This document shows, piece after piece, positions 23,992 to 58,725 of a stretch of 64,000 nucleotides of DNA. The translations under genes were made by a program, and so were the position numbers. A model generated the notes under the pieces. It was not told the DNA's origin and ran no database searches. It saw only the letters and a program-made list of their open reading frames with translations. Every line of letters starts with the position of its first letter. Positions within the stretch are counted from its first letter, which is position 1. The DNA is taken from assembly GCA_000611775.1 (NCBI GenBank), contig KK106982.1, forward strand, positions 6,380,495-6,444,494, given 5' to 3'. Source of the DNA: Umbilicaria muhlenbergii. Its lineage: Eukaryota; Ascomycota; Lecanoromycetes; Umbilicariales; Umbilicariaceae.

Positions 23992-24791
23992 AGAATGTTC
24001 CTAGTGATTTAAACTGTGAGACTTGTAGATATCGACGAGAGAAACGATTGCTGAGGGGCAAATTTAGAAAAACACTTGAGAGTCTCCTCAGCCTGATGAT
24101 CCCAACGTACTCACTTACTGTGCCACCTGAGGCAGCCTCAACGGGCTGTGTAGCACGGATAAGGAGGCGGCAAGATCATGCTGTGTAACAAAGGCAACGC
24201 CCGAGTATGCTGTGTAACACAGACAGCGCCCGATTATGCTCAAAGCTGTTCCAAGGATTCACTATAAGAGGGCTGTGCATTTTGCATTTTCTGATATTGA
24301 TGTTGCTTGAGAGTATCCAATGATGAGTCGTGTCAATATTCCACGTTGTTTGCGGCGTGGAAGCATTATTTGTAGTTTTGCAAACGCTTCAAGTGATCCA
24401 TGTTAGAGGATGATTATTCAAGCAGGCCTCATAGGTGTTAAATTATAACATCCCTTACTAAAAAAGGAAGTATAGCCAAGGTATGTGACAGCGTGAGATA
24501 TAAATGTGTATAAAGTAAATAGTTTTAACTATATAAGATTAATAACTAAAGAGTGAAAAAAGGAGTGATGCTGAGTTTTATTATGTGCACTGTTAAATCA
24601 CTTAGGAAGTGTTAAGCTTAATATGTTATTATATTATGACATTTGTCTTCTCTTTTGTGTGTTAACTTCTCAGCGTCACTTGCCCTGTACTGTAACATGT
24701 AGTGTAGCAGTATGTAACTGTCATCTTGATAATGCTCAGTTGTTGACATGTTGTGAATGTCTCAGCCTTAACTCAGGTCAATATGTCATTG
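23992..24791. other. Upstream region of the 766-aa gene and edge of the AT-rich block
   Basis: The first 430 bp are GC-balanced and should contain the promoter of the minus-strand gene. Two diverged copies of a roughly 33-bp unit (centred on GCTGTGTAACA and CGCCCGA) lie at 24174-24242. From about 24,420 the base composition drops sharply to AT-rich, CpG-poor sequence that precedes the first LTR. Confidence 0.5.
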
Positions 24792-25090
24792 TGTAAGAGG
24801 GTGAGTGTACGACGGTCGTCGTATAGGTGTTGAACGGGGTGTCGTAGGCAGTATAGTCATAATAGGGCCAATGCAGTGGTTATACGTCTTCTATTCAGTG
24901 GCAAAACTGATCACTGAGGAAGCAGGTTTTCAAACCTCCTTATGAAGAGTTTTCACTTGATGCCAAGGCGCAAGGCGCTGAGTCATCATGTTTATATAAT
25001 GTCATACTATAGTGTCGTACTATAGTGCCGTACTATAGTGTCGTACTATAGTGTTGTATTGTCATACTTATTATATGGTGACCTCTGACA
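24792..25090 (-). repeat. LTR-A, copy 1 (299 bp)
   Basis: Starts TGTAAGAGG and ends CTCTGACA. It is the least mutated of four copies and still holds many CpGs. A 13-bp unit ending in TACTATAG is repeated about four times inside it (25004-25060). Confidence 0.8.
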
Positions 25091-25183
25091 CAGCATTCCT
25101 CTTCTCATGACGCCGTCCCTGGAGCCAACTGACCGCTCATAAACTTTATTATAACGTCGTAACAGTTGAGGTTGTAGAGTGAG

Positions 25184-25413
25184 TGTCAGGACTATGCAGA
25201 TTATGGATCAATGCATGTGTTTTGACGGCTGGCATTTAGCTACAGAGAAGAATTCTAGTCTAAGGAGCAAAAGGAAGAAAGAGTATAAAGATCAAAGCCT
25301 TTGTGTGCGTGCTAGGCTCGCTAGTCTAATCGCCGCTAACTCATTCAGTCGTTCAGTTTGGTACATCATTCAGATCATTCAGTTCAGTTCAACGTTCAGG
25401 CGTAAACCTGACA
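25184..25413 (-). repeat. LTR-B, left copy (3' LTR)
   Basis: 230 bp, starting TGTCAGG and ending CCTGACA, a terminal inverted pair. Keeps about eight CpGs and a normal base composition. Confidence 0.9.
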
Positions 25414-28400
25414 CTACCCCCCCCTTTATCTAGTGAGCTCTGTGAGCTGATCATCTACTTTTCTACTTTGTCGTTGATGTAATTGGTGGCCCGGCCGGTT
25501 TATTTGAGTACCGCTCATGAAATGCCTCTTTCATTTCAGGTGAGTGTTCAAATTCATCAGTGTTGTATCAGGTCTTGTCAGGTGAGTATTCTTTTCATGT
25601 CACTCTGTACTGTAGTCTGTTTTTTCACCAACAGCTATCATTAATCTGTTCAACTTCTCATTCCGGTTCAGCCTGTTCAGTTATTACTGGTGGTGGTGAT
25701 GACTCAATTTGTTCAGGCAAAGGATCATTCACAGTGAGTTGTAGTAAGAAGGTGTGAAAGACAGAGTGTATCTTCATTGACTTAAGCTGTTCAAGCTTAT
25801 ATGCTTGAGCTGATACTTTCTTCTTGATTTGAAAAGGTCCTTCATTCTTGTGATTCAGCTTTTTGAATAAGTGAGTTGTTTGAATGTTCTTCATTAATAA
25901 TCATATCAGATCTTTCACTTTATATGTTAAGGTTAATGTTCAAGTTCTGTTCATGAAATCTTCTTGTTGAAGTTGTGCTGCTGTCATGTTGTCTTATAAC
26001 ATCACATGTAGAGCCTTCATATGATTTATTATGAAATCAGCTTTTTCCTTCAGAATTCATTCTCTTGTCAGCAGCAGAGTGATCAATCATTTAAAGTTGA
26101 AGCTCATTCAGGAGTGATATTCTTTATTCACAAAAAAGAGTGAAACTTTAATGAAGTCAGAATCTGCATTGTTGACTGTGAACTCAATCATTAATAATTA
26201 TTTAGTTCAGTCATTTTGCTGATAGTTCATGAATGCTTTAAGATAGCATTTAACATTCACATTTGCATTTTTAGACTGCCTGTCTGTCTCTGAATGAAAA
26301 GCAGTTGAAGGTTTCAATCTGATTCAGAGTTGTTTGTAAAGGTGTTTTCACAGTACTGTGACAAATTGTGATCCTCAGTCTGATGTAATTGTCTGTGGTA
26401 ATTCATGAAATCTTTATACATTTTGAAGCAAGAGTTCAGTAATGTATTCAGCTGATGTTCCCTCATTTTTATCTGTTGAATAAGGAATATAATGTCTCTC
26501 CTTGATCAGTCTGCAAATGACTGTCAGGATTACATTAAACCCTTCACTTTCAAGTAACTTGATAATCAAGTTGAGTGAAATATCTTGTCATGAATGACTT
26601 GAAATTAACAGTGATTTCAGGGCTCCTTGATACTGCTCATTCATGTTCTTTGTTCAGCAGCAGATGTGACAATTTTAAATAAAACAACTGACTGTTCAGT
26701 TCATTCAGAGTCAGTAGTAGAAGTGTGCAAGCAGTTTCAGAGTCTTTCAGTGTTTAATATGTTTTATCATCAGCTGTTCATAAGCTTCCTGAATTAATCA
26801 TCATTATAATTTATTTTAATTCAGATCATTGTTGACTTCTGAGACTCATACTCATTCCTGATACAGTAATTGACTGTTTAAATTCTTAATACAGTTGTTG
26901 AGAGAGATTTTAATTGAATGTCTTGCCCTGATTTGTAATAAGTTTAGAATTTCCTGGCAGAAATCATCTGCTTTCACATAATGAGTAATCAACTCATTTA
27001 AAGTCTCATTCAGGACCTGTTCAGCTGATTTATTTAAAACTGATTCATTCAGTGCTGATTCATTCAGGATTAATTCATTCAGGGTTTATTCAGCTGATTC
27101 ATTCAGAGTCTGTTCAGCTGATTTTAAAAGATGAGGAGCTTTTTTCTTTTGTTTAATAATAATGCATGAGTTTAAACAGTGACTCAGTAACATGATTTGA
27201 GATTAATATTGTAATCACTCATCATCTTCATTCTTCTTTAGTTGATCACCTGAGCATTTAATGAGTATATTCACCTTTTCATTTTCTTTGCCTGTTTGAT
27301 AGGTGATCACAAAGTTGAATTATAAGAAAAATTCAACTCATCTGACTTGTCTGTGAGTCAGTTTCTTAATTATTATAAAGTACTTCAAGGCTTTATGATC
27401 TGTTAAAATTTAAATCAGATCCTCTGTTTCTGTCAATTCAGTGCATCATTCTTTTAAACTTTAAATGATAGTCAACAATTTCTTGTCATAGATTTCATAA
27501 TTGCATTCAGCTGGTATGAGTTTCTTAGAGAAAAATGTCACTGAATGCATTAATTTTTAATCATCTTTCTGAGATAGCACTCCTGTGGATATCAGATCAG
27601 ATGAATCACATTCAAGATAACATGTTCAAGTTCAGTCAAAGTATTGTAATATTAACATGTTAATCAATCAGTTCTTTAGTTTACTAAAGACTTGAAGACA
27701 CTGTTCAGTTTACATATTAAAGAGTAAGTTCTTGCCTGTTAGTCTGATTAAAAACTTTGTGATTTTGAAATATTCCTCTATGAATTGTCAGTAAAAGTTA
27801 TAAAAATCTAAGAATGCTTGCAGCTGTTTTAAATTAATGAGCACTTCTTAAGTCTTTATAATCATGATCTTTTTAAAGTTTACTCAGATGTCATGATGTT
27901 CTATGATCAGTTCTAGGTATTGAGTTTCAGTCTTATGAAATTCACACTTCTTGATTTCAGTCTGTAAATTTGCCTTTCTCAGTCATTCTAGAACAGTTTA
28001 AATATGAGTTTAATGTTCAAACAGAGACTCTGAATAGATCAGGATATCATTCAAATATGTTGTACAACAAGTGTTTAATAAATTGAATAATACATCATTA
28101 ATCAAGTGCTGAAAGATGACTGATTCATTAATGAGTCTGAAAGGCAAGATCTTATATTTGTAGAAATCATGCCTTGTTTAAAAGGTTGTCAGATCTTCAG
28201 AAGCAGGATTCATTCATATGCAGTGAAATGCCTGTTGTATATCAATCTTGATGAAGTATTTTGTCTTCAAAATCTGAGTCAGAGTTTCCTCAATCAAAGA
28301 CAATGAGTATCAGTCTTTCTTCATAATTGAATTCAACTTTTAATAATTAATGCACAGTCATAAAGACTCATCTTTCTTTTGTATGAACAGAATCAATGAG

Positions 28401-30841
28401 GCTACTGATGATTGACTGACTTTAATGAAACTTTTTTGCAAGTTGTCTTCTATGTAGTTCTTCATCACTACTAGTTCTTCATGTGATATGTTGTAGAGGA
28501 GTGTATATCTTAACTTTTGCTCATCTTTTAAGACAATCTTGTGATCATAAAGTTGATGCAAAGGGAGTTCATTTGCAGCCTTTTTAGAGAAGACATCAAT
28601 CAAATCATGATATTCAGAAGAGAGAATCACTTTGATATTCAGTTCACTTAACTTTAATTTAAAGTTCAATGCTTCCTCAATTTGTTGAATAAAGATAACA
28701 AAGATTTCATTGTCTTTCTTTATATTTAATGCAAACAGTGCTGCATCAATCATCTTGATATTAACTGCATGTGAGGGGTTATTATTCTTTGATGTGAAGA
28801 CTGATTCAAGATCTGCTTTTGTGATGAATTTCTTCAAGATCTGATAGGTTTTCAGTGATTCAAGTTCAATTGTTCATTCATTCAATTCAATTCATTTGTT
28901 CATTCAGTTATTTGATTGTTCAGTTCATTCATTTGATGTTCATTCCTTCATTCAGTTCTTCAGTTCAGTTTGTTCAGTCATTTGGTCATTCAGTTGTTCA
29001 GTTCATTCATTCAGTGAGAAAATCACTACCCGGTTCACAGGGTCAATTAAAATCCAGGTGTGATTCATTCAAGAGAGTTTCAATATAATGTTGAGATCTT
29101 TCATGTCTACAATCATCATGAGGGTGAGTTGCTGAGAATGACTGCAAACCTTCATAATTGAATAAATCACATGTGTAACTCATCTCACTGTCTTTTTCTG
29201 AAAATCATGTAAAGTTCAGGGCTTTGGCAGTGATACTGCTTTAATTTCAGATCATTCAATCAGAGTCTTTGTCAAGTTAGCATTAATGAATGCATATTCA
29301 ATTGACTCAGTGTCAAGTAGAGCCTTGACTCATAACTTGATTTCATTTAAAGTGAGCTTGCAATCTGCTTCAAATGATGTTCAGATGAACAGAATGTCTT
29401 CATTAATTATTAACATTAATATCACAAGAGGATTATCATTAATCTTTATCATAACTTTAATAGGAGAACACCTTTTCCTGAATTTAAATTAAAATTAAAG
29501 TCAAAGTTGAATATGATTTATTATACACATTTTAATGCTGAAGTCTCTTTCTTCTTGTCCTTGTTCAGACAGTTTAAAGCAAGATGTTTTTATTCATTAT
29601 ATTTAAAGTATTGTTCTTTCTTCATCTGTTGTTCTTTGACAGCATCTGAGTGTGATGTTCAGTTCAGTGTTCAGGGAACTGACTCAGTGATCATTCAGGT
29701 AGTTGATTTTAAGGTTTTAATAAAATGTTCAGTCCTTGTATGAGTTTAACTTGTGAAGAGGAGTGTTTAATTTAATTGAAGTTTAATGATCTTCTTTGCA
29801 TCAAGCAGTCATAAGGTCTGATTGATTCACTGACAGCACTTAATGAGTTCATAAAGATCTTCAGATCTGTTGTTGTCAGTGTTTAATTATTATTAAATAA
29901 TGTTGTTCACCTTGTTCAGAAGTTCTTCTATTCAGTATAAATCAAAAAACTCATTCAGTTCAGTAACATATCATTGAAAATCAGTTCAGAAGGACGGGAA
30001 GTCTTTGAATTCTTAATAAAGTTTATAAAATTCATCAGTGATGATACATTTTTGATCTGAGTCTCTGTAGATTCAGGTCAAATGTTTTAACAGTTTAATA
30101 ATGTTTAAATAAGCTGTTCAGGATGCTGAATTCATTTAAGATCTTATGTGTTTAACAGAGTCATCTTTAACTCTTGTTTTCATGTACATTATCTTCATCT
30201 GTTTGATGAGGTATTATTCATTCATTGTTAATAAGTAGTTTTTGATCTTCACTACTCATTCATCATATTTTGAACAGTCATTGAAGAACATCAGTGAATT
30301 AAGGAGTTTTAATAATCTGAATGATTTCTCAACTGTGAGTTGAGGGAAATCAAGTTGAGGAGTGCTTGTGACTGTGATTCTTTGTTCAAGGTATGTTATC
30401 ACATTAACTTATTTAATAACTTTCCTCTTCAGTTCCTTGTTCTTGTCTTTCATTTTATCATAATTCACTTGTAGTTCTTCATGTGCCTTTATAATGATGT
30501 TGATTTCATTCAGGGACTGTTCATGATTGATGATCAGTTGTCAGAGAGCAGTCATTACTTCAGAAAAGTGTTTTTATAAAAAATTAATCAAGATCTCTGC
30601 TGTCAGAGCTGTCAAGATCTGATTAATCAGGTTTTCATTCAAAATGAATTATTCATCATTCACAGAAGTCAACAAAGACTCTTTAATTCATGAGTAAACT
30701 ATATTATCAGTTTCTCTGATCATCATGATTAATTTTTAATTTTAATTCTGATTCTGATTCTGGTTCTGATTCAATTTCAATTTAATTCAGAATTCATTCA
30801 GGATGCCTTGCAGCAGAAGATAAAGAAAAAGATTAAAATAA

Positions 30842-31071
30842 TATCAAGATTATGCAGATTATAAATTAATGCATGTGTTTTAACAGCTGACATTTAGTTA
30901 CAGAGAAGAATTTTAGTCTAAGAAGCAAAAGGAAGAAAGAGCATGAAGATTAAAATCTTTATATATGCATTAAGCTCACTAATTTAATCATCACTAACTC
31001 ATTCAGTCATTCAGTTCAGTACATCATTCAGATCATTCAGCTCAGTTTAATGTTCAAGTGTAAATCTGACA
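30842..31071 (-). repeat. LTR-B, right copy (5' LTR)
   Basis: 230 bp, the same length as the left copy with no indels. It differs from it at about 40 positions by my count, all transitions, and has no CpG left. Confidence 0.9.
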
Positions 31072-31540
31072 GTGAGTGTGTTGAGATTGTATTAAGATAA
31101 AGCTGATCATATGTTTTCACTTAATTGTGATGATATCACACCTGGCAGTAAGCTTTCTTTATAACATAAACATCAAAATAATCATGTTAACTGTAAGTTC
31201 AAAATGCCTCTTCTTTGTGTGTATTCTTCATCATTTGTCTTATGACATGTTGTTATACATCTCACAGCTTTTTTTTCTGCAGTTCATTAAGTGACTTGAT
31301 GACTTCATGATGTTATCCTTATTGCAGAGGTGTTCACTTCATGAAGGAAGTATCATGAAGCTTGCAGCTCATGATTTAACATTCTTTGTAATGTAATACT
31401 TCCTGTCATATGTTGTATGAATGCTAACATAGTGTATATAGCTCATCAACATTTAAATGATTAAACTCACAGTTGTGAACAATAGTGAAGATTCATCTTC
31501 ATCAAGCAAGCCTGTCAGTCTTCATGCTTAATATAACAGG

Positions 31541-33637
31541 TGATGTCATAATGACTGAAGTGATATTATCATTCAACAAACTATAAAGATGATTCAATGA
31601 ACTAAATCAAGTTCAATGAACTGCATGATCAATGAGCTTAAGATTATGATCAAGTGAGGGAACTAGTAGTCATAATCTTAAAAGATTGCATTTAATACAT
31701 GAGTTGAGCATGAGCTCTTAACTATGAATTTACCTGTGATTATATAAATTATAAGAGACTTCTGTGCTCATCATGCTCATCACTGCTCACTGCATGTATG
31801 ATGCAGTGAGCTCAGTGAGCAATTGAGATAACATTATCTGTGCTCATCATGCTCACCTCTGCTCTCTATGTGTGTGACATAGTGAGCATGATGAGCAGCC
31901 TCATAACTACGCATGCACTGTGTACATGAATAGTATTATAGTACAGGAGCTGTAACATTAACTTTTTTCTTAAAGTTTTCATCCTTAAAAACTCAAACGC
32001 TTTCATGCCTCCTCTGAGAATTTGAAAGAGATTAAACTTTACACAACATCATTATACTCTTGCTCACAAGCTTGAGCTTGCTCCTCTCATCATGTGATCA
32101 TGTAAGTGATGTGTTGATGAATTTAAAGACTGTCACATGAGTCCTGATTTTGATAAGTGTTTTGCATATATAAAAATTAAGAAGTTCTGTGACCTGACTT
32201 TCTGTGAGGCTGACTGAGACAGGTTAAAAGCTGAATTAACTTCTTTAAAGAAAAAGGCTTCTGCTGCAGCAGATGCTGTTACTGATGCAGTGAATGTCAT
32301 GATTGAAGCAGCAGTTAAACAAATTGAAGCAGTGATCAGACTGACTCACCTGCAGAAACAAAAAAAACTGCTACAGCATTAATGAAGAGACTTCATATCT
32401 CATGAGTTTATGAACATTGAAGAGTTGAAAGCAGATGAGCACAAGCAGGTTAAAGCTTCATCTTCAGGTTTTACTTCTGAGCTGTTCAATTTCTTTGTGT
32501 TGAGTGACTTAGAATGACTGAATTCCTCTGACAGAATTAATGTAACTTTATTAAACAATGAGTAAAGTTTTTTTCTAACTCTCATGTGTTTCCTGCCGTG
32601 TCATATTCTTTTCATTTAATTAAATAATGATGCTCATCATTTACTTCTTGTTGATTTAGTGTTTCCTTTATCTTAAACTCAACATTCTGACTTTCTGAGT
32701 TGATCTCTGATGAATTCATCTGCAACAGAGTCCTTGAATCTGCTGATTTGAGTAATGATACATGAAATACTGAATGTATCTGCATGAATGATGAGAGTGT
32801 GAGTTCATAGTTGACACTTTCTTTTTTCTTAGCAATTCAAAATGATTTTAACTTGACATGATTCAATTTATTGCTTGATCACTTTGTTTTGATGTTGTGA
32901 TGTAAAAGATATACTTTATTCTTCTCTTCAAGAGTAGGTCTCTTATCTCTTTTCTTATTATAATATATCACTGATCTTTCTGAGGTAAATTTTATGTTTC
33001 ATTGTAGTTTCTTATGAAGGTTCTTTAAATGATTCACTTGTACTTTCACTTTTTATGCTATGATTGCTAGCCCCCTTGCTTTATTCATAAGTGAATTAAA
33101 CTTGTAGTTGATGTAAAATGATGATATCTCAGTGAATTTCATTGTTGCTGTGTTGTAAGTTAACTGAGCTATCAGTAAGAGTTCTACTCAATTGATTTAT
33201 TGATAATTAACATAGCAGTGCAAGTACTGCTTTAATGTTTAATTCAGGTGTTCTGTCTGTCCATTCATCTGAAAATGATATGTCATGAACAGCTTATGAT
33301 GAATCCCTAGTTGATTCACTAATGATTTTTAAAACTTAAAGATGAAGAGTTTGTCTCTGTCTGAGATTATCTCTTTCAGCAACCCGTGGTTGACTGTTAT
33401 AATTTTTAAGAATGTGTATGTTAATTCTTCTGCTGATGATGACTCCTTATAAGGTAAGAAGTATTCATACTTCATGAGTTAATTCATTATGACAAGTATT
33501 GCATCATATAATAATTTCATCAGGGGTTCTTTTGATTTTGATAACTTTATTATGAAGTTTAATGTGATGCTTGATCATGACTGTGTTGATGTTGATGATG
33601 ATTTTAACAGTTCATATGATCTGTGATGTTCTGCTTT
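31541..33637 (-). mobile_element. Fragment C: terminal part of another Gypsy-like element
   Basis: Fossil, truncated. A candidate LTR of about 417 bp (31541-31957, TGATGTCA to TGTAACA) is followed by non-A sequence. A stretch near 33,240-33,275 still resembles the integrase HPQTDGQTE region on the minus strand. LTR-A2 cuts it off on the right. I found no target duplication, so its limits are approximate. Confidence 0.45.
31765..31897. repeat. 15-bp repeat in direct and inverted copies
   Basis: TGCTCATCATGCTCA occurs at 31765-31779 and 31841-31855, and its exact reverse complement at 31883-31897. The last two could form a hairpin with a 27-nt loop inside the candidate LTR of fragment C. Confidence 0.75.
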
Positions 33638-33915
33638 TGTAAGAGGTGAGGTGTACAACAGAGTGTCATAATGATGTTTGAACAGAATGTCATAAACAAT
33701 ATAATCATGATGAAGTTAATGCAATGATTATACATCTTCTATTCAGTGACAAAACTGATCACTGAGGAAGCAGGTTTCTGAACCTTCTTGTGAAGAGTTT
33801 TCACTTAATGTCAAGGCGCTACTCACTGAGTCATCATATAAGTGAGTTATAATAATATACTGTCATACTGTTGTACTGTTATATTGTCATACTATTATAT
33901 ATGATGGCTCTGACA
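33638..33915 (-). repeat. LTR-A, copy 2 (278 bp)
   Basis: Same ends as copy 1 (TGTAAGAGG, CTCTGACA); strongly CpG-depleted. Internal A sequence follows on the right, so it acts as the left LTR of copy 2. Confidence 0.8.
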
Positions 33916-35714
33916 CAGTATTTCCCTTCTCATGGCGTCATCCTCAGTGTCAATTGACTTCAAATTCATCATTATAAACATCATCATGATGACCTGATAA
34001 ATGATTAGTCATGTAGAGTGAGGATGTGAAACTGTGTTAAGATAAGACTGATCACATGTCTTCACTTAATTGTGATGATATTACATCTGACAGTAAGCTC
34101 TTCTTCCTAACATAAACATTAAAATTAAAAGGTTTATTGTAAGTTTAAAACATTCTTCCCTTGTGTTTCTTCTTCATCATTTCTCTTATGACATGTTGTT
34201 GTATTTCTCATGACTTTTTCACAGCTCATTGAGTGACTTGATGACTTCATGATGTCATCTTCATTGCAGAGGTGTTCACCTTATGAAGAGAGTGTCATGA
34301 AGCTTGCAGCTCACAGTTTAACATTCTTATGATGTCATACTTCCTGTCATATATCATATGAATGCTAACATGATATATAAGCAATCAATAATTGAACTCT
34401 TGAACTCATAATCATGAACAATAATGAAGACCTGCCTTCATCAGGGAAGCCTGTCAATCTTTAAGCTTAATGTGATGAGGAGGGCTCTGAGTCAGAGTCA
34501 GTGAATAAAACTGTGATGATTGACACCTTCAAGAAGAGATGAGGAAACAGAGTGATAAAACTGACTATTCAACATCTGAAGAGGGTCAGGTGTTTACTTT
34601 TAAGTGATGTTTTCAACAGCAGTTCCTGCTCTGTGTGATGTCATGATAATACCTCACTGTCAGCGCGCATGCAACAGGGTCATCATCATGAGCATGTGAT
34701 TTAAGAGAACTTCAGTCACATGCTGTTAAGTACTGCTCACTGTGACTCTTGCAGAAGAGTTGAAGTTGATCAGTGCTTCATGTCACAAGTTAATTCAACC
34801 TGTGCTTGTTGCACATCATTTCACAACTTTCATGATTAATGCATGATGAAGCCTCTGATCATCACTGCTTCAATCTTTAAAAGCTCTGATGTTGTTGTTC
34901 TGCATGCGCATGCTTATGATGACAGGAGGGGTAATGACACACTGTAAATTTATCTTTTTTAATCCTCTTTCATTTTGTTTCATTTAGTATGAATATGATG
35001 TACTTGTCATACTTATGATATTTTGTCATATTATTGTATATACAACATTTTGTCATACTGCTGTACTGTTGCACTGTTGTACTATTAACATGTTAATTGT
35101 CATATAGCACTTGACAGCTGATCAATTCCTCATGCTGCTGCTTCTTATCAATCACTATTGACACCCTCTGCACTTTTTGCAGTCACTCCTCAACATGAGT
35201 TTCTTGACTCTTTTGAGGTCAAAATGTGTTAATTCAATAATTCTGAGAAGCTCATTCAAGCTCTTGCTGTCTTGCTGAAAAGCACTGCTCATGCTCTTTG
35301 CATCCTCAACACTCATCAATCTCATCATCATCAAGAGTACATTGAACTCTGTGAGCACTGATATGTTGAGGAGATGAGGTTGAAGGCTTCATTAAACAAT
35401 AATGAAGAAGAGTTTAAGACAGTGAAAGATAAGTAAATAAATGAAGATGACTTGACATAACACTGATGAGAAGTTAAGTGCAAGATGTTGATCTTAAATT
35501 CATTTTAATCTTCAAACCTGAAATGAAATGCTTCTGCACTTGAGTGTTCTCTGCAATGTGACATGTCTGTGATAATGTAATTCATGCAGTAATCTTATTA
35601 AAGATCCTGTTGTAGCATCATAGCATCATAGCCCCTGTCATACTTGTCATAAGGCACAGGCTTCATCATAGAAGATCAGGTTAACAAAGCTGATAAAGTT
35701 TTCAATTCTTAAGA

Positions 35715-35930
35715 CTCATGACTTTTGTGACAACTTCTCAATCAATCATGAAGGATCATGTCTTAAAGCTCATGACTTTTATGACAGCTTCTCAATCAAC
35801 CTTGAAGGATCACATCTTAAAGCTCATGACTTTTGCAACAGCTTCTCAATCAACCTTGAAGGATCATGTTTTAAGGCTCATAACTTTTGCAACAGCTTTT
35901 TAATCAACCTTGAAGAATCACATCTTAAGG
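35715..35930. repeat. 54-bp tandem repeat, four units
   Basis: Four diverged 54-bp units (18 codons) in copy 2 of family A. The same place in copy 3 (about 44,870-44,935) has one unit, so the expansion is specific to copy 2. Confidence 0.8.
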
Positions 35931-38900: not shown

Positions 38901-39214
38901 GTCATTCTTTAACAGCGTGAATTCTTTCTGAATTCATATGTATACCTTCAGTATTGATCTTAAACCTCAGGAAGTTCACTTTCATTGCATTAAAAAAGCA
39001 TTTGCTGATCTTAAGATGAAGATCATGATGTCATAACACAGTTAATACTTGTCATACATGCTTCTCATGTTCAGATTCATCTTTGCTGAAGATCAGGATA
39101 TCATCTAGATAAATCATGCAGATTATATCAAAGAACTCATTAAAAGTCTTATCAATGAATGCCTGAAATGTAGCAGGAGCATTTATGAGACTGAAAGACA
39201 TGACAAGATATTTA

Positions 39215-39362
39215 AACAGGCTGAATCATGTTCAGAATGCTGTTTTTCACTCATCTTCACCCTTGATTCATATTCAATTATATGCATTAACAGGCTGAAT
39301 CATGTTCAGAATGCTGTTTTTCACTCATCTTCACCCTTGATTCATATTCAATTATATGCATT
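39215..39362. repeat. Identical 74-bp tandem duplication
   Basis: 39215-39288 and 39289-39362 are identical to my reading, although the surrounding element copies differ widely. The duplication therefore followed the hypermutation. Confidence 0.85.
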
Positions 39363-42765: not shown

Positions 42766-43051
42766 TGTAAGAGGCGGGGTATATGACAGAGCATCATAAT
42801 GATGTTTAAACAGAGTGTTGTAAGCAATATAATCATGATGAGGTTAATGCAATGTTTATATGTCTTCTATTTGATGGCAAAACTGATCACTGAGGAAGCA
42901 GGTTTTCAAACCTCCTTGTGAAGAGTTTTCACTTGATGCCAAGATGCTACTCACTGAGTCATCATATAAGTGAGTTATAATGACATACTGTCATACTGTT
43001 GTACTGTTGTACTGTCATACTGTCATACTACTATATATGATGACCCTGACA
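42766..43051 (-). repeat. LTR-A, copy 3 (286 bp)
   Basis: TGTAAGAGG start and CCCTGACA end. It serves as the left (3') LTR of the copy-3 element. Confidence 0.8.
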
Positions 43052-45042: not shown

Positions 45043-45274
45043 GCTTTCATTTAATGAAGTATTGAAGCCTGCTGTCATGAATGCAGTTATTCACAATTGC
45101 TTTGACTTCTCACTCATCATCTCAGTTGAGTAGTAGGTCTTTTCCTGTCAATGCAGAGGCTTTCATTTGATGAGGTATTGAAGCCTGCTGTCATGAACAT
45201 GATTATTCACAATTGCCTCAACTTCTCACTCATCATCTCAGTTGAGTAGTAGGTCTTTTCCTGTTAATGCAGAA
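45043..45274. repeat. 116-bp tandem duplication
   Basis: Two similar but diverged units, 45043-45158 and 45159-45274, inside copy 3. Copy 2 has a single unit at about 36,045, so this duplication is older than the 74-bp one but specific to copy 3. Confidence 0.8.
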
Positions 45275-46671
45275 AACACATGACATGTGCCTTGAAATGA
45301 CTTCAATAAAGTGACGTTGAATACATTATAGATGTTTTGATCCTCTGGGAAGTCAAGTTCATATGATGACTGATTTATCACACATCATATCATGAATGAG
45401 CTGAGCTTTTTTCAATGCAGTTTCTTCATCTGCTTATTCATTGACACATTCTTTTCATTAATCAGTACTAAATCACCTTCTTTGAATGTTATCTCTGTTC
45501 AGTGCTGATTATAATAGTTTGCATACATCTTGTTGACTTATTATAGCTGTTCATGAGCTGTTGCAATTTGATCTTGAAGCTGCTGTGCATCTGCATAAGG
45601 TCTTATTTGTTCATGTGAGTGCTGTATAAACAGCTTACTTAAGCTCATCTGAGGGTTTCACTTTAAGTTAAGCTGAAAGGGGCTCTTTCCTGTAGCAGCA
45701 TGTATGAAGTTGTTGTATGAGAACTTCATGCAGGGTAGAAGCTTCACTCAGTCCTCTTGCTGCTCATCAACAAATATGTATAAATACATCTTCAGGGACT
45801 GGTTCTGCCTCTCTGTTTGATCATCAGTTTGCGGGTGAAAAGCTGTTGACATGTTATGATGACATCACATGTGAAAGCAGAAGCTGATTCATTGCTTTAA
45901 TGTAAAAAGCTTGTCTCTGTCTGTGACTAGAACTTTTGACACATCATGATGCTTAATAATGTCCTGAATAAACACTTCAATGAAGTCAGCAACCAACATT
46001 GTCTTCTGTACAAGAATATAATGAGTCATTTTAATCAACTTATCAATTATGATGAGGATCAAATCTCATGTTGTACTTTCATATGTGCTGCTCAGTGGCA
46101 GGTCTGTAATGAAGTTCATTGTCATCATATGTCATGACACTTCTGAGACTGATAATGAGTTTAATAACCTGTATGATTTGTGATGAGCTGGCTTCACCTT
46201 TTAGCATTCAACACAGTCATGACAGTAACATCATACATCTTTGACAGCATCAGGTCAGTCATAAGATCACTGCATTAATTTTGTAATTCTTGACTTCCTG
46301 AAATGACCTGCAAAGACATCATCATGAAATCAACTGATCACTGCATTGCAGAGGGCAGGGTTCTGTGGAATGTAAATCTTATCATCATAATATATGACAT
46401 CCTCAATTTCCTCTCAATGTTTCATTATGTCAGGGAGTATTGTCATCATATTTGTCATTTCTGACTCAGTCAAGTTGTTTTTATCCTCAAGAGGGGTAGT
46501 TAATTCCTGTCATACTCATCATATCAAACTGTCTTTCAACTGTTCAGTATGAATTGTACATTCAAGTTGTTTAATAAACATTCTTGTATAAGCTGTTATC
46601 TCCTCACCTAGGGGTGAGTGAGCAGACATGAGCTGAAGCGCTTCAACAATGTCAGCAGAAAGAGTGCTATC

Positions 46672-49600
46672 CTCAATTTAAAGATTAATAAGAACATGAC
46701 TTATGTCATCATTTATAATTACAGTGCTTGCTGCATTATTCTTGATTGAGTGCTGTTCAGATTCTGCATACTCAGATCTTCTCATTCAATCACAGCTTGC
46801 TTCTTAAGCATATAGGTCATGAACTGCTGATGTTTCAGTCATATCACCAGCTTCAGTATTTGTTGTATTGATATATTCATCATGGCTTGCTTCTCAAGCA
46901 TGTAGGTCATGAACTGCTGGTGTTTCAATCATGCTGTCAGCTTCAGTATTCATCATACTGATATTATTCATTGTGACAGGTATGACATTCTTTTGTTGTA
47001 GCCTCTGTCATACTGAGTGTCTTGGCTGCAGCATCATTGCAGCAAGTGCATATAATTTCTTCTGCACTGACTTATAATCCTTGCTTCCTAAATGGAAGAA
47101 CTGTTGCATTATTTCAGCAGCAGTTGAGGTACTGACAGTTTTCAGCAGTTCATAATCAGGTCATCTTGACAGACTGTCAGCAGAATTCTTCTTGCCCTCT
47201 TGATATGTGACCTTAAAGTTGTACTCAGTGAGCTTTTCAGCTCACTTGAGCTGCCTTCATGTGAGGTTTGAGGTAGTCATAAATCAAACAAGGTTTGCAT
47301 GATCAGTCAATACAATGATCAGGTGCCTAGCGCCTCAATTTAAAGATTAATAAAAACATGACTTATGTCATCATTTATAACTACAGTGCTTGCTGCATTA
47401 TTCTTAATTGAGTGCTGTTCAGGTTCTGCATACTCAGGTCTTCTCATTCAATCACAGCTTGCTTCTTAAGCATATAAGTCATGAACTGCTGATGTTTCAG
47501 TCATATCACCAGCTTCAGTATTTGTTGTATTAATATATTCATCATGACTTGCTTCTCAAGCATGTAGATCATGAACTGCTGATGTTTCAGTCATGCTGTC
47601 AGCTTCAGTATTCATCATACTGATATTATTCATTGTGACAGGTATGACATTCTTTTGTTGTAGCCTCTGTCATACTGAGTGTCTTGACTGCAGCATCATT
47701 GCAGCAAGTGCATATAATTTCTTCTGCACTGACTTATAATCCTTGCTTCCTAAATGAAAGAACTGTTGCATTATTTCAGCAGCAGTTGAGGTACTGACAG
47801 TATTCAGCAGTTCATAATCAGGTCATCTTGACAGACTGTCAGCAGAATTCTTCTTGCACTCTTGATATGTGACCTTAAAGTTGTACTCAGTGAGCTTTTC
47901 AGCACACTTGAGCTGCCTTCATGTGAGGTTTGAGGTAGTCATAAATCAAACAAGGTTTGCATGATCAGTCAATACAATGATCAGGTGCCTAGCGCCTCAA
48001 TTTAAAGATTAATAAAAACATGACTTATGTCATCATTTATAACTACAGTGCTTGCTGCATTATTCTTAATTGAGTGCTGTTCAGGTTCTGCATACTCAGG
48101 TCTTCTCATTCAATCACAGCTTGCTTCTTAAGCATATAAGTCATGAACTGCTGATGTTTCAGTCATATCACCAGCTTCAGTATTTGTTGTATTAATATAT
48201 TCATCATGACTTGCTTCTCAAGCATGTAGATCATGAACTGCTGATGTTTCAGTCATATCACCAGCTTCAGTATTTGTTGTATTAATATATTCATCATGAC
48301 TTGCTTCTCAAGCATGTAGATCATGAACTGCTGATGTTTCAGTCATATCACCAGCTTCAGTATTTGTTGTATTAATATATTCATCATGACTTGCTTCTCA
48401 AGCATGTAGATCATGAACTGCTGATGTTTCAGTCATATCACCAGCTTCAGTATTTGTTGTATTAATATATTCATCATGACTTGCTTCTCAAGCATGTAGA
48501 TCATGAACTGCTGATGTTTCAGTCATGCTGTCAGCTTCAGTATTCATCATACTGATATTATTCATTGTGACAGGTATGACATTCTTTTGTTGTAGCCTCT
48601 GTCATACTGAGTGTCTTGACTGCAGCATCATTGCAGCAAGTGCATATAATTTCTTCTGCACTGACTTATAATCCTTGCTTCCTAAATGGAAGAACTGTTG
48701 CATTATTTCAGCAGCAGTTGAGGTACTGACAGTCTTCAGCAGTTCATAATCAGGTCATCTTGACAGACTGTCAGCAGAATTCTTCTTGCTCTCTTGATAT
48801 GTGACCTTAAAGTTGTACTCAGTGAGCTTTTCAGCCCACTTGAGCTGCCTTCATGTGAGGTTTGAGGTAGTCATAAATCAAACAAGGTTTGCATGATCAG
48901 TCAATACAATGATCAGGTGCCTAGCGCCTCAATTTAAAGATTAATAAAAACATGACTTATGTCATCATTTATAACTACAGTGCTTGCTGCATTATTCTTA
49001 ATTGAGTGCTGTTCAGGTTCTGCATACTCAGGTCTTCTCATTCAATCACAGCTTGCTTCTTAAGCATATAAGTCATGAACTGCTGATGTTTCAGTCATAT
49101 CACCAGCTTCAGTATTTGTTGTATTAATATATTCATCATGACTTGCTTCTCAAGCATGTAGATCATGAACTGCTGATGTTTCAGTCATATCACCAGCTTC
49201 AGTATTTGTTGTATTAATATATTCATCATGACTTGCTTCTCAAGCATGTAGATCATGAACTGCTGATGTTTCAGTCATATCACCAGCTTCAGTATTTGTT
49301 GTATTAATATATTCATCATGACTTGCTTCTCAAGCATGTAGATCATGAACTGCTGATGTTTCAGTCATATCACCAGCTTCAGTATTTGTTGTATTAATAT
49401 ATTCATCATGACTTGCTTCTCAAGCATGTAGATCATGAACTGCTGATGTTTCAGTCATGCTGTCAGCTTCAGTATTCATCATACTGATATTATTCATTGT
49501 GACAGGTATGACATTCTTTTGTTGTAGCCTCTGTCATACTGAGTGTCTTGACTGCAGCATCATTGCAGCAAGTGCATATAATTTCTTCTGCACTGACTTA

Positions 49601-50791
49601 TAATCCTTGCTTCCTAAATGGAAGAACTGTTGCATTATTTCAGCAGCAGTTGAGGTACTGACAGTCTTCAGCAGTTCATAATCAGGTCATCTTGACAGAC
49701 TGTCAGCAGAATTCTTCTTGCTCTCTTGATATGTGACCTTAAAGTTGTACTCAGTGAGCTTTTCAGCCCACTTGAGCTGCCTTCATGTGAGGTTTGAGGT
49801 AGTCATAAATCAAACAAGGTTTGCATGATCAGTCAATACAATGATCAGGTGCCTAGCGCCTCAATTTAAAGATTAATAAAAACATGACTTATGTCATCAT
49901 TTATAACTACAGTGCTTGCTGCATTATTCTTAATTGAGTGCTGTTCAGGTTCTGCATACTCAGGTCTTCTCATTCAATCACAGCTTGCTTCTTAAGCATA
50001 TAAGTCATGAACTGCTGATGTTTCAGTCATATCACCAGCTTCAGTATTTGTTGTATTAATATATTCATCATGACTTGCTTCTCAAGCATGTAGATCATGA
50101 ACTGCTGATGTTTCAGTCATATCACCAGCTTCAGTATTTGTTGTATTAATATATTCATCATGACTTGCTTCTCAAGCATGTAGATCATGAACTGCTGATG
50201 TTTCAGTCATATCACCAGCTTCAGTATTTGTTGTATTAATATATTCATCATGACTTGCTTCTCAAGCATGTAGATCATGAACTGCTGATGTTTCAGTCAT
50301 ATCACCAGCTTCAGTATTTGTTGTATTAATATATTCATCATGACTTGCTTCTCAAGCATGTAGATCATGAACTGCTGATGTTTCAGTCATGCTGTCAGCT
50401 TCAGTATTCATCATACTGATATTATTCATTGTGACAGGTATGACATTCTTTTGTTGTAGCCTCTGTCATACTGAGTGTCTTGACTGCAGCATCATTGCAG
50501 CAAGTGCATATAATTTCTTCTGCACTGACTTATAATCCTTGCTTCCTAAATGGAAGAACTGTTGCATTATTTCAGCAGCAGTTGAGGTACTGACAGTCTT
50601 CAGCAGTTCATAATCAGGTCATCTTGACAGACTGTCAGCAGAATTCTTCTTGCTCTCTTGATATGTGACCTTAAAGTTGTACTCAGTGAGCTTTTCAGCC
50701 CACTTGAGCTGCCTTCATGTGAGGTTTGAGGTAGTCATAAATCAAACAAGGTTTGCATGATCAGTCAATACAATGATCAGGTGCCTAGCGC
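46672..50791. repeat. Two-level tandem array: units of 662, 662, 932, 932 and 932 bp
   Basis: Unit starts are 46672, 47334, 47996, 48928 and 49860, and the array ends at 50791. The three long units equal the short one plus exactly 270 bp, which is three extra copies of a 90-bp repeat (first seen as identical 90-bp steps from 48181). Units 2-5 are nearly identical, with only a handful of differences, while unit 1 is more diverged. The 90-bp repeat is 30 codons long and also exists in copy 2 (37,680-37,930, three diverged units), so it began as an in-frame repeat of the element. Confidence 0.92.
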
Positions 50792-53700
50792 CTCAACAGT
50801 AATGTTGTCAATGATGCATGACTTTCATGATGACAAGGAGCTCTTGCTCACTTGTATCATATCAAGTCTCAGTATCTAGCAGCTTCTTGCTGTAGTAAGT
50901 AATTAATAATCAGTGCAATTGACTGTTGACCTCAAAGTGTTGCATCAAGATTTCATCAATTGTGAATTCAGAGGCGTTCATTTCAACCCTCATGAGTTTG
51001 TTTTCATTGAAATAATGTAATAATGAAGCACTCATGAAGGTCTTCTTCAAAGCATTAAACACTTTCAATGTGACTCCTGAGAGTGAAAAAAAGGCAGGTA
51101 TGATGTTTTCTTGTTGTAACTTTCCTCTGACTTGCAGGTTGCATGCTGAATATTTTGTATTAAATTTTCACAATGAGGTCAGGCTGTTCTGCTTTCTTTT
51201 AATAACAGTTCATTGAGACTGAAGAGGAGAGGATGATGTATCCTCAGTCTTCTTTTTATTCTTTCCTGTTTTCAGAAGATTTAACAGCAGTGCTGCAATT
51301 CATGAATAATCTTTTATAAACCTTTGAAAGAAGTTAATGAAGCCTAGAAAGACCTGCAATTCATGAATGTTCTCTGAGAGTAGTTATTCTTCAACGGCGT
51401 GAATCCTTTCTGAACTCATATGTATGCCTTCAGTATTGATCTTAAACCTCAGGAAGTTCACTTTCATTGCATTAAAGGAGCATTTGCTGATCTTAAGATG
51501 AAGATCATGACATCATAATGCAGTTAATACTTGTTGTACATGTTCCTCATGTTTAGATTCATCTTTGCTGAAGATCAGGATATCATCTAGATAAATCATG
51601 CAGATTATATCAAGGAACTCATCAAGAGCCTTATCAATGAAGGCCTGAAACATAGCAGGAGCATTTGTGAGACTGAAAGGCATGACAAGATATTTAAACA
51701 GACTGAACTGTGTTCAGAATGCTGTTTTCCACTCATCTTCACCCTTGATTCATATTCAATTATATGCATTCTTGCAGTTCAGCTTAATGAACTTCTTAGC
51801 TCCTTAAAGACGGTTCAACATATCTGATATGAGTGATAGGAGATAACAGTTCTTAATGATAATGTCATTCAACTGTTTATAATCAATGATCAGTCACAGG
51901 CTTCTGTCTGATTTAGGCATGAACATGACAGGTGAAGCTGCAGGTGATATTAATTTACAGATTATGCCTGCTTTCATAACATCATTTAAATATACCTTCA
52001 GTACATCAAGCTCAGCTGAAAACATTGAGTATAACTTTCTGAATGAAGGTTGCTGCCCTGATTTCAAGTCAATGACATGATCATGTGAACCTCTTTCAGG
52101 CAGAGACTGCTTCTCAGTCACCTGAAATATGTCTGTGTACTCATGATATTCAGGTGATAATGTGTCATACACATCTTTACCTCTGTTGTACTGTAATGAG
52201 TTCATCTGAAGGGTATATTTTTTCATATCAGCCACTAGGTCCGCCGGCCCTATAAAGCAGTCAGTAATGATGAGGCTGTTCATACATAGAACATTCTTCA
52301 ACGCCTTCTTTTCATCAGCAGTGAATATATGATGTGCAGTAGTATGTTTTGACTTTCTTCATAGAAATTTACTCATATCATAGTAGTGATTTGAGTTTGC
52401 ATGAACTAGAAATGATAGCCTGAGGACAAAAGAAGCTGGTGTGTTGTCTTGTGTAACAAAGAAATGATTACTATAGTGGTAAGGTTGACTGTCAGTGTTG
52501 TATGCTGTAATCATCAGTATGACAGACTCTGATAGCTCAATCACATTACCTCATGCATTGCCTTGAGCCTCATAGGATTCAGTCAGTATGAAGAGTATAT
52601 TCTTTCATATTAATTATTAAATCTGACAGTCCTATGAAGTGTTCTGTAATGAAAAGGTTGTTCATATGTAAAACATTCTTCAGTGCCTTCTTCTCACTGA
52701 TGATGAATACTCAGTGTGCTGTGATATGCCTCACCTTTTTTCATAGGAATTTCCTCATGTCATATTCATGATTCAGATTTGCATTGATTAGGAATGATAA
52801 CCTGAGGATGAAAGAAGCTGATGCATTATCTCATGTGATAAAGAAGCAGCTGTTATAGTGATAAAATTAATCATTAATGTTGTACACTGTAATAATTAAT
52901 ATGACGGATTCTGACAAGTCAATCATATTGCTTCATGTATTAACTTGAGCTTCATAGGGTTCAGTTTGTAAAGACAGTTCATTGACAACATATCATGTGA
53001 TGATATTGCCTTGACTATCATTGTCAATAATATATGAGTATTTTTTCTTTGAATCATCTCTTGTCATATGAAAGTCCCCTCTAACTGCTCTGATATCAGA
53101 TGTGAGATATCATCAATGATAAGTAAGAAGATGAGCTGAAGGTTGACTGTGAATCATTTATTCACATCAACTGCAGTAATGACTGCTGTTGATCATCCTG
53201 TTGTACATTTATTTGTTCAATGACTGATGACTTTACACTTGATACAGAGGTCTGCTGCTTTTCATGTATTCATTTTGTTCTTAAGAATAAAGTCTTCTTG
53301 TCAGCATGAGAGTCCTGTGAATGTCTGTGTTGTTGTCATGATCACTTTCTTCACAATTGATATGTGATTTAAATTTCAGCTTTGATCACAGTTACTTTCT
53401 TGATAAAAACCTCATGAATTGTTTCCTCTTTCATGATTGAATTGTTGAGGGTGAGAGATTTATTATTCAGTGAAAAATTCTTTTCTGTCATAGTATGATG
53501 TCAGTGTTGTACTTTTGTTTATGTCATCAATCTTGTTTTAGTGGTCCTTTTTAGTGTCTGAACAGCTTCAAAACAGTTCATGATTGATGATGATGTCAAG
53601 ATGTGCTGAAATTTCTTGCACTGACTGTCTTGCAACCTGCATCAGATCTCAACATCATAGTTCAGTTAAAACATGATGAGGAAGTCTTGATCATCAGCAG

Positions 53701-54580
53701 TCTCAAATGAGCATCTCATTGATTTCCTTATGTGAAGCTGAAAGAAAGCAGTAGAGTTCTGATAATCTGTCATATCAAGAGGTGATTATATCATGATTAT
53801 GAAATTCAACTGCATTAAAAGTGATGATATTTCATTCATTCATGTCTTCATCAGGAGATAAGTTCTTCTTCAGCATCTTCAGAAAATTATTATAAATGAT
53901 TTAAATATGATCATGCTGCTTCTTCTGCTTCTGTCAGTCACTCATGATTATTTTCTCTAGATAGGTGCCTGCTCAGATGATGAAATCTCATTCAGTAAAG
54001 AATTGCTCTGACATCAGCTCCTGATTCTGATTGATTTCATTCAGGTATTTTTAAAGTTTTCATCTCATGACTTTAACACCTCCTGCATAAAGGTGAGGCT
54101 CTCATGACTTTACAAGACATTGAAAAAAGGGAGGTGTGATGTCTGTCATAACTTAACATTATAATTCATGTGATAAACCTGTGTTGTTCTCTGAGTTTAC
54201 TGTAATCATAGTTGAAGGACCTTCTTGCAGATGTTGATTAAACTCTCAGAGCTTCTTTTTATTATCCTCAAACTTAATTTCTTGTCATACATGTTGTAAT
54301 TGTAATCACTGACGCTTGATGACCTCCTGATTATGAGCAGTGACTGCCTCAAGATCTTTAATGATGTCATTAAAGTTGCCTGCAGTGATATGTTCATCAT
54401 CATCAATGATGTTAAAAGTAAGAGTATCAATGACTGATAATGTAAACCTGCTAATTGAAGGGCTTGCCTCAACTTAATTATTGACTGTTTCACTGACCTG
54501 ATGAGATTGAAGTGTTGATGTCATCATGTCTTATTTGCTTTCAACATGACTGTTCACCTGAAGGTACTGAGTGATCAGTA

Positions 54581-54868
54581 TGTAAGAGGCTGAGTGTATG
54601 ACAGAGCATCATAACAGTGTTTGAATGAGATGTCATAAACAATATAGTCATGATGAGGTCAATGCAATAATGATTATACATCTTCTATTTCATGACAAAA
54701 CTGATCATTGAGGAAGCAGGTTTCTGCACCTCCTTGTGAAGAGTTTTCACTTGATACCAAGGCGCTAGGCGTTGAGTCATCATATTTAAGTTATAGTGTC
54801 ATACCATAGTGTCATACTAGTGTTGTATTAGTGTCATATTGTCATACTATTATATGATGGCTCTGACA
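54581..54868 (-). repeat. LTR-A, copy 4 (288 bp)
   Basis: Starts TGTAAGAGG and ends CTCTGACA. Unique sequence follows on the right, so this is the outer (5') LTR of copy 3. Confidence 0.8.
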
Positions 54869-56280
54869 AATACTGAGAAACAATTCCTTATGTTGTGCTT
54901 ACAAGAAGGACTGAAGTGTGATTGAAATTATCAATTATATACACTGTTAATAAATCAGTTGTCAGCAACTGATCTGTTGACCTTTTATTAAGATGATGTA
55001 GGACAACTAGCAGTGTCTGCATTAACAGAAGTGCAAGAGCAATCTGTTGTAATTAGTTATTAAATGAGACAAGGATGAAATCTAGTGAAAGTTAATAAAG
55101 ATCAAAACTATGCTCTGTTTTGTTGCATTGAAGCTTTCATAGGTTTAAATCTTAATTGAAATGATAACCTTGTTGATTGTCAATTTAGATACTCATCTTT
55201 TTATAATTTATTTGAATCAAGCTCAGCTGTGTTAAATCAGCAGAGTTTAACTGATCTGATCTCAACTTCAGTTCATCACCTCTTCAGGGTGAGCCACTTT
55301 CACAAATTATAATTAACACTGCATGTGATCACGCAGCTCAGTGGAAATAATACCTTAGGGTTGACGGGATTCAGTTCCCGCAGTGAAAGACTTAATGTTT
55401 ACTTATTAGTGTGACCAGCGGAATTTAGAACACATCACTGAGCATAGTAATTAAATCATTCAATCACTGCTTGAAATCCTCTTTCCACCATCCTCATGAT
55501 TCTCAAGAGGTGTAACACTAGCTATTAAGTACATCTGCTGAAGCAGAGTTATCAATCATTACTGACAGTATTATCACTGACTTGAGAAAAGTTTTCACTT
55601 TCTTGCAGAAGTGTCAGAACAGTTATAAGATGAGCATTCAACATTTCAGATGCTCAAAAGCATCACTGCCTGCTGATAGTTCTGATTCTACTTTCTATAG
55701 TATTGCTATCATATATTTGTTGAATTTAATTCAATGAATCAACTAACTCCTAAAAACAAGTGAGAGATGCTTAATTATAAGGTCATGAGTGAGGGGCTTG
55801 AACCCTGAAACTCACCCTGAAATCTGATGCCTGAGAGCTGACAGCAGTTAAATTCAACACTCTCTCTCACTGAAGGCTCCTCAAAATTCCTCAATTTCTA
55901 ACCCTCAACAAGGTCATATCATGACCCTATCAGGCTCAAAATTGTCATGACATGATGTCATTTTCAGAGTTAACATTTGATGAAGTTTGCTGCTGATAAG
56001 GATGATGACACAAGAAGCATGAAAAGTTGTGACTGTGATGAAAAACCTTTCAAACTGAGGTCAGTGATGTTAAAGCTGAAAGTGATCATTGCAGCTGAGT
56101 AGCATAGCACTTCAAATGCAGGTCTGAGTGAACAGTAACAAAATGAGAAGCAGATTGTGTGAGGATACTACAGACTACCTTAATAATGACCTGCACATGA
56201 CTGTGAAAGAGCAATGTAAAGGTTCCTGAAAATTAAGCAGGCAGCAGCTGACCCTCTCAGGAGGCATGATCACTCAGAAT
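54869..56280. other. AT-rich flank without recognisable gene
   Basis: Same CpG-poor composition as the retroelement block, but no LTR or pol sequence recognised. Probably remains of other repeats, or unique DNA mutated by spreading from the neighbouring repeats. Confidence 0.4.
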
Positions 56281-58629: not shown

Positions 58630-58725
58630 TACCAAACAGAACGACGCTGTCACATCAGAGTGAGAAATGGTGGTCATAAACGTCGATGGCTGATGGCTGT
58701 GTTGAGTGATGAGCGACAAGCTTTG

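Follow-up and report, generated by a model that had tools for sequence, protein, structure and literature searches.

Within a 64,000-nucleotide stretch of the ascomycete Umbilicaria muhlenbergii (contig KK106982.1 of assembly GCA_000611775.1, here C2:6,380,495-6,444,494; hereafter the window), a pile of long terminal repeat (LTR) elements has lost almost all of its CpG dinucleotides. When copies of these elements are aligned, the targets of C-to-T change rank by next base as CpG far ahead of CpC, then CpT and finally CpA, approximately the reverse of repeat-induced point mutation (RIP) in Neurospora. We propose that the best explanation is a CpG-preferring, repeat-directed, RIP-like C-to-T mutator, to which the sequence evidence leads us to assign a probability of roughly 0.72; membership of RIP proper would need a cross. 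CpG-biased mutation of repeats is already known, and what is new here is the measured context order together with the set of methyltransferase genes that accompanies it.

CpG loss in the block and in sampled repeats

The assembly comprises 34.8 Mb in seven contigs. A first-pass annotation of the window had reported a near-absence of CpG over 24,420-56,280. The depletion is real, but it begins later: two LTRs at 24,792-25,560 retain 29 CpG (observed/expected ratio, o/e, 0.80), placing the true left limit of the CpG-free part near 25,561. From there to 56,250 the block (Table 1) contains 50 CpG, compared with a mean of 926 and a minimum of 865 in 200 mononucleotide shuffles. All 15 2-kb bins between 26,001 and 56,000 have a CpG o/e of 0.00-0.11 and a GC content of 0.31-0.38, whereas bins lying entirely outside the block range from 0.72 to 1.02 in CpG o/e. 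Equally strong depletion of the flanking genes, which the annotation had named as evidence to the contrary, is absent: the flanks stand at 0.88 and 0.82.

Over 24,420-56,280, CA and TG are abundant, just as the annotation had it (rho 1.67 and 1.49), and TA is not in excess (0.64). CG stands at 0.08 and CT at 1.15, and CpC is also depleted, with a rho of 0.49 for CC and 0.52 for GG on the other strand. The order of depletion by rho, which runs CG, CC, CT and CA, mirrors the mutation order obtained from aligned copies. RIP is commonly scored by TpA/ApT, by (CpA+TpG)/(ApC+GpT) or by their difference (e.g., PMC4165359; here and below, published statements are taken from passages of the papers cited). 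Computed for the block, as the annotation had suggested, these indices come to 0.61 for TpA/ApT, 1.71 for the substrate index and -1.10 for the composite index, values that are not of the CpA type. The composite index is higher in the flanks (-0.56 and -0.52), meaning that thoroughly mutated repeats score less RIP-like than the genes beside them.

Four neighboring 10-kb stretches have a CpG o/e of 0.85-0.93. At contig ends, four of nine 10-kb stretches fall below 0.2 (L016, L017, L019 and L020), and among six interior points sampled one is low (0.18) and five are at 0.82 or above. Stop codons provide a second view of the sampled repeats. A TGA stop is produced from CGA by a change at CpG or from TGG by one at the CpC of the opposite strand; TAG and TAA come mostly by way of CpA. 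Of 877 reverse-transcriptase candidates, 150 matches were scored (one free of stops), and in these we counted 682 TGA, 106 TAA and 15 TAG, and in 43 DDE_1 matches (four free of stops) 127, 49 and 4, respectively. This excess of TGA supports the same target order. Sampled stretches and stop counts together indicate that repeats are affected genome-wide, and within the sequence examined the mutation is confined to repeats, both statements referring to the part of the genome that was sampled. The copies of a 479-bp tandem duplication to the right of the block differ at seven of 16 CpG dinucleotides, of which six read CG/CA or CG/TG; this CpG bias suggests that a milder effect reaches outside the block.

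Order of targets in aligned copies

Self-comparison and genome searches resolved the block into two LTR families, A and B. The 1.3-kb A interior occurs at 39 places in the genome above 1,150 bits, with 79-100% identity (the query and copy 1 counted; 40 of 200 candidates scored), and the B interior at about 33. We aligned 21 A copies, two of them from the window and with L025, a duplicate of one, dropped, and 21 B copies; these are the best of the match lists and no random sample. Transitions outnumber transversions by 34,003 to 1,931 (17.6:1) among the A copies and by 43,163 to 5,086 (8.5:1) among the B copies. Where the annotation had noted TG in one copy facing CA in the other (34,480-34,930 against 43,610-44,060), 12 of the 20 adjacent double differences are indeed CA/TG. 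This pair differs by 71 transitions and no transversions, and its single C/T differences precede T 21 times, A 12 times and C and G four times each, as raw counts uncorrected for context frequency. Across all 210 A pairs, no adjacent double difference is as common as CA/TG (5,268 of 11,762); next come CT/TC (1,796) and AG/GA (1,525), a ranking that would follow from CpC being the second target.

We defined an ancestral CpG site as an alignment column in which TG and CA each occur at least twice, a rule that yields 82 sites in A and 60 in B. CG is left in 126 of 1,719 cells at the A sites and in 33 of 1,250 at the B sites, corresponding to losses of 93% and 97%, with the site rule leaning towards mutated sites. 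The other contexts were scored as the fraction of T in columns with a conserved next base; columns followed by a base that itself varies between C and T numbered 93 in A (T fraction 0.36) and 102 in B (0.41) and, like those unclear for other reasons, were kept out of these counts. In A this fraction is 0.32 at CpC (223/692), 0.15 at CpT (608/3,961) and 0.07 at CpA (279/3,957), and in B the corresponding values are 0.48 (171/356), 0.31 (1,326/4,309) and 0.20 (932/4,552). C-to-T change in contexts other than CpG, which the annotation had also remarked on, is plainly present, and a dominance of CpA-to-TpA change, which it had listed as contrary evidence, did not appear. Counts made against the copy richest in CpG likewise put CpG and CpC on top, with CpA and CpT nearly equal (0.142 and 0.155 in A, 0.202 and 0.217 in B). 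That near equality reflects CA left by opposite-strand hits at CpG, which is counted there as CpA, and we preferred the column-based counts.

Treating the copies as a star, arithmetic on the alignment counts gives a CpG loss per C of about 1.3 in A and 1.8 in B, and 0.0035 and 0.0077 transversions per site and lineage. Per site, CpG loss exceeds the transversion rate about 370-fold in A and 240-fold in B. Shared transversions are found in 14 of 61 transversion columns in A and 50 of 112 in B, so the transversion rate since insertion is overstated, a bias that opposes the lean of the CpG site rule.

LTRs that retain CpG serve as references for polarized comparisons. The B LTR at 30,844-31,071 shows no transversions in 228 bp relative to 25,186-25,413, and all eight CpG have changed, five to CA and three to TG. 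In this pair, C-to-T change by next base amounts to 8/16 for G, 6/12 for C, 10/36 for T and 10/33 for A, and T-to-C change to 5/131. Pooled over 16 other A LTRs compared with the CpG-retaining A LTR, C-to-T change is 138/506 before G, 116/482 before C, 95/754 before T and 64/835 before A; eight other B LTRs give 80/184, 68/213, 89/418 and 90/407 in the same order.

The annotation had read the TG/CA sites as independent C-to-T hits on either strand of an old CpG, and the A copies agree with it. The standard deviation of pairwise agreement at CpG sites is 0.053 in A, compared with 0.057 in column shuffles, with 240 of 300 shuffles reaching the observed value; the hits look independent in each copy, with no signal of shared history. 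In B the spread is somewhat wider, and 11 of 300 shuffles reach it. Strand choice in A is independent of neighboring sites in all seven distance bins (|z| within 1.4), and B has no strand runs either, its largest |z|, 2.26, occurring at 1-10 bp and favoring opposite strands. Where a CpG has a 5' A on one strand and a 5' T on the other, the hit fell on the A side in 106 of 130 and in 460 of 622 cells. All 300 site bootstraps rank T as the least favored base 5' of CpG, separate fits for families A and B concur, and we conclude that TCG is disfavored as a target. The apparent preference for 5' C is exaggerated by CCA, which counts among the CpC targets, and only the result for T was used.

Methyltransferase genes and competing explanations

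A search with PF00145 found four loci (four of four candidates scored), which we assign to three classes, one gene of each, and one degraded DNMT5 paralog. This set of methyltransferases suggests a filamentous ascomycete. L005 is a 1,323-aa frame whose best solved match, 9bap, is named cytosine-5 methyltransferase (E 1.1e-178); it has a DUF7893 match and a BAH match below its cut-off, and we read it as DIM-2-like. The RID-like gene that the annotation had proposed to look for is probably L006, a methylase domain with the motifs SPPCQ and EQT, the latter presumably a trait of the RID family. Its frame ends soon after the last motif, as in DmtA homologs (PMC2432034). L006 has a 51-nt in-frame intron at 5,424-5,474, with a GTAAGT donor and a TAG acceptor, and from its motifs and domain we read it as RID/Masc1-like. 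In L007, a methylase frame adjoins an SNF2 frame; its best solved match, 7r76 (E 8e-64), is named DNA repair protein Rad8, and we take it to be Cryptococcus Dnmt5. Rad8 entries of this kind are probably DNMT5 (PMC7862722), and we read L007 as DNMT5-like. The degraded paralog (L008, C1:6,522,500-6,532,000) is 79% identical over 947 bp, in a locus with a CpG o/e of 0.54. A search for DNMT1-RFD (PF12047) gave no matches, with control genomes silent too.

With CpG as the main target, an excess of transitions, repeats as the sequences hit and a predicted RID/Masc1-class gene, the mutation appears to work like CpG-type RIP. In the mechanism that we favor, the LTR retrotransposon pile would owe its inactivation to an active RIP-type process that directs C-to-T mutation at repeats and prefers CpG, then CpC, then CpT, with CpA last, and disfavors a 5' T. 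A RID-class enzyme may start the mutation, presumably before meiosis, and the preference for CpG could be a property of RID itself or arise where RID co-operates with DNMT5 or DIM-2. Because at least one very recent duplication has been left unmutated, the mutator would at present be inactive or act seldom, or else depend on a sexual cycle that has not taken place in the meantime. It is possible, although we lean against so complete a scheme, that a RID-initiated mutator with the order CpG > CpC > CpT > CpA, inactive after T, owes its preference to the RID-class enzyme or to a hand-over to DNMT5, and that once CpG is exhausted the CpG-free repeats duplicate undamaged. A genome with RID-, DIM-2- and DNMT5-like genes, in which DNMT1-RFD went undetected (the control being silent) and CpG is hit first and CpA last, offers a direct test of which enzyme determines the target context.

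The annotation had left two alternatives for CpG-targeted mutation, methylation-linked deamination and a CpG-preferring RIP variant. The second fits better, since CpC and CpT mutate much more often than the background given by transversions, and CpG exceeds that background by a factor of hundreds. Under the first, transposon CpG would be methylated (maintained by DNMT5 and perhaps set by RID or DIM-2, resembling methylation induced premeiotically, MIP) and would decay slowly by spontaneous deamination of 5-methylcytosine, with no active mutator. Such decay agrees with the presence of a DNMT5-like gene, with CpG as the top context and with a strand choice in A that is independent of neighboring sites, and deamination of methyl-cytosine was proposed for CpG signatures by Amselem et al. 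(PMC4352252). However, the changes are not confined to CpG: CpC and CpT reach T fractions of 0.15-0.48, and transversions amount to 0.35-0.8% per lineage. In addition, the ratios of CpG loss to transversion are well above those of mammals, which are tens-fold. Slow decay alone therefore fits poorly, and we consider it unlikely.

Three further explanations fare worse. Canonical Neurospora-type RIP would suit the RID-like and DIM-2-like genes, but both families show the least mutation at CpA, TpA/ApT is 0.61, the composite index lies below the flanks and TAG supplies 15 of 803 stops; the context counts rule out a CpA-type process, to which we give practically no weight. If the elements had been CpG-poor before arrival or for compositional reasons, without any mutator, the uniformly AT-rich block would follow naturally. 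Yet copies differ by TG/CA at every ancestral CpG site defined above, and among 20 LTRs retrieved from other places 8 still carry 10-21 CpG, making such an origin extremely improbable. An APOBEC-like DNA cytidine deaminase working on single strands, in place of a methyltransferase-based process, could produce the second rank of CpC; CpG as the first target and the lack of strand runs in both families argue against it, and from these mutation patterns we regard it as very improbable.

Several observations weigh against a repeat-directed mutator. We see none of the strand-wise action expected of a single RIP cycle, although its traces would be lost over many cycles. A shared history links some B copies, and in the B LTRs CpT and CpA are about equal. 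The DNMT5 gene and L008, tried as a polarized pair, gave no clear signature: C-to-T change was 20/106 at CpG, 20/98 at CpC, 14/119 at CpT and 14/137 at CpA, and T-to-C change was also common (53/466). Action on new duplications longer than about 1 kb is not seen in the pair shared by C2 and C4, and little-hit A LTRs of hit elements, though repeats, are not predicted by simple repeat-sensing (both described below).

CpG-biased mutation of repeats is on record among ascomycetes for Uncinocarpus reesii, Coccidioides, Aspergillus nidulans MATE elements and Tuber (PMC4165359, PMC4014442, PMC2621366, PMC4352252). RIP at CG dinucleotides was predicted in U. reesii (PMC4165359), and CpG mutation was tied to repeats in Coccidioides (as cited in PMC4014442). 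U. muhlenbergii resembles these Onygenales as an ascomycete with a RID homolog and CpG loss or mutation in repeats, but differs in that CpC is second, CpA last and TCG disfavored, and in its DIM-2-like gene; DIM-2 is almost absent from Eurotiomycetes (PMC12543289). The passages covered contain no order of the remaining contexts for U. reesii or Coccidioides. Tuber melanosporum also has CpG as its main signature and genes of the RID/Masc1 and DIM-2 classes, but CpA is second there (PMC4352252), whereas the copies analyzed here have lost nearly all CpG and have CpA in last place; contrary to that account, PMC4165359 has neither change enriched in Tuber. CpG likewise leads in the MATE repeats of A. 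nidulans, with CpA second there and last here (PMC2621366).

Among basidiomycetes, Microbotryum violaceum shares the CpG-directed C-to-T change in retrotransposons but prefers TpCpG, and only a Masc2-type enzyme was found there (PMC4352252), whereas here a 5' T is least favored and RID-, DIM-2- and DNMT5-like genes are present. Rhizoctonia solani AG8 is similar in its CpG-biased C-to-T change and frequent CpC changes but has both genes and repeats hit (PMC4014442), in contrast to the undepleted flanks here. RIP in Neurospora crassa also acts by C-to-T change on repeats, in a genome with RID-class and DIM-2-class genes, but prefers CpA and leaves TpA, whereas here CpA is least affected and TpA is not raised. 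MIP in Ascobolus is a CpG-centered targeting of repeats (PMC4165359); it sets a methylation state, whereas here the sequence itself is changed. Across 10 genomes, Amselem et al. (PMC4352252) associated CpA/CpT signatures with RID and CpG-only signatures with Masc2, with Tuber mixed between CpG and CpA, and a 2025 survey of 1,239 fungi describes RIP-like defenses as sharing a CpA preference (PMC12543289). Within the titles, abstract openings and passages covered, with subscription papers such as Clutterbuck 2011 outside them, no order of CpG > CpC > CpT > CpA is described.

Elements, recent duplications and spared LTRs

The features of the block and its surroundings are listed in Table 1. The reverse-transcriptase relic and the RNase-H-like remnant point to a retrotransposon origin of the block, and we read its relics as Ty3/Gypsy type. 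By their order, the B LTRs on either side of the B interior probably belong to one element. Neither Rfam families nor tRNAs were found in scans of the window, and five contig-end loci scanned for Rfam families gave nothing either. Three units of TTAGGG had no match in the assembly, in a search that may skip simple repeats; the telomeres may be missing from the assembly or of another sequence.

Table 1. Features in and around the CpG-erased block (window coordinates)
Feature	Position	Strand	Remarks
CpG-erased block, nested/tandem LTR elements	25561..56250	.	50 CpG in 30.7 kb, o/e 0.05
Family-A LTR, left edge, CpG retained	24792..25186	+	17 CpG, o/e 0.93
Family-B LTR, left edge, directly 5' of B interior, CpG retained	25184..25560	+	12 CpG, o/e 0.67
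Family-B interior	26200..30800	+	Genome search: 33 of 203 candidates scored, 47 match rows
Family-B LTR piece 3' of B interior	30844..31071	+	0 CpG
Family-A LTR	33635..33943	+	2 CpG
Family-A interior segment, copy 1	34470..35770	+	Self-comparison, alignment of copies
Family-A LTR between two A interiors	42764..43094	+	2 CpG
Family-A interior segment, copy 2	43600..44930	+	1.3-kb query of genome search
Tandem array, 932-bp period	47458..50796	+	Units with 1 CpG each, 99.7% identical at this offset
RNase-H-like remnant of reverse transcriptase	50910..51167	-	PF17919, E 2e-7
Reverse-transcriptase relic	51444..51917 (C2:6431938-6432411)	-	PF00078; 5 TGA and 1 TAA inside
Segment with a second copy on contig C4 (1208895-1212800, reverse strand)	53075..56969	+	99.8% identical
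Family-A LTR	54575..54868	+	2 CpG
479-bp tandem duplication, right flank	58725..59646	.	7 of 16 CpG dinucleotides differ between copies

The segment shared with contig C4 (window 53,075-56,969; C4:1,208,895-1,212,800, L093) aligns over 3,906 bases at 99.8% identity, in the CpG-free part and the CpG-rich flank alike. Of the window's 40 CpG, 39 are also CpG on C4, and the remaining one falls among the breakpoint mismatches. Seven differences separate the two copies: three lie at the breakpoint, and the four internal ones are C/T at CpC or CpT, with none at CpG. This recent interchromosomal duplication is at least 3.9 kb long, has a breakpoint near 56,970 and joins part of a dead retrotransposon to a CpG-rich flank. 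It may be later than the last sexual cycle.

High identity is also seen at two other places. The 932-bp tandem units at 47,458-50,796, which contain a 90-bp sub-repeat, are 99.7% alike, compared with about 84-90% for copies otherwise, and represent CpG-free DNA that has recently expanded locally. At the end of contig C3 (L065, C3:5,806,240-5,810,239), the last 2.1 kb match window 43,018-45,159 in family A at 99.6%, after which identity falls sharply to 90%, marking a recent exchange, conversion or assembly join. Assembly duplication may lie behind the C2/C4, 932-bp tandem and C3-end identities.

LTRs that retain CpG while their own interior has lost most of it occur at window 24,792-25,560 and at L081, L085, L086 and L088. 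Four A LTRs beside hit A interiors carry 21, 16, 10 and 8 CpG in about 370 bp, and the interiors of these elements 7, 0, 4 and 14 CpG in about 1.3 kb; the four were chosen from a list ranked by similarity to the CpG-retaining LTR (eight A rows beside listed interiors, four fetched), so this sparing is overstated. Nor is sparing a rule for LTRs, since three A LTRs inside the block keep two CpG each and six of seven B LTRs fetched have 0-2 CpG, two of these lying beside B interiors. Edge sparing, a length threshold or conversion between LTRs may account for the spared A LTRs. As to length, some A LTRs of about 390 bp are spared, yet they adjoin long homologous interiors.

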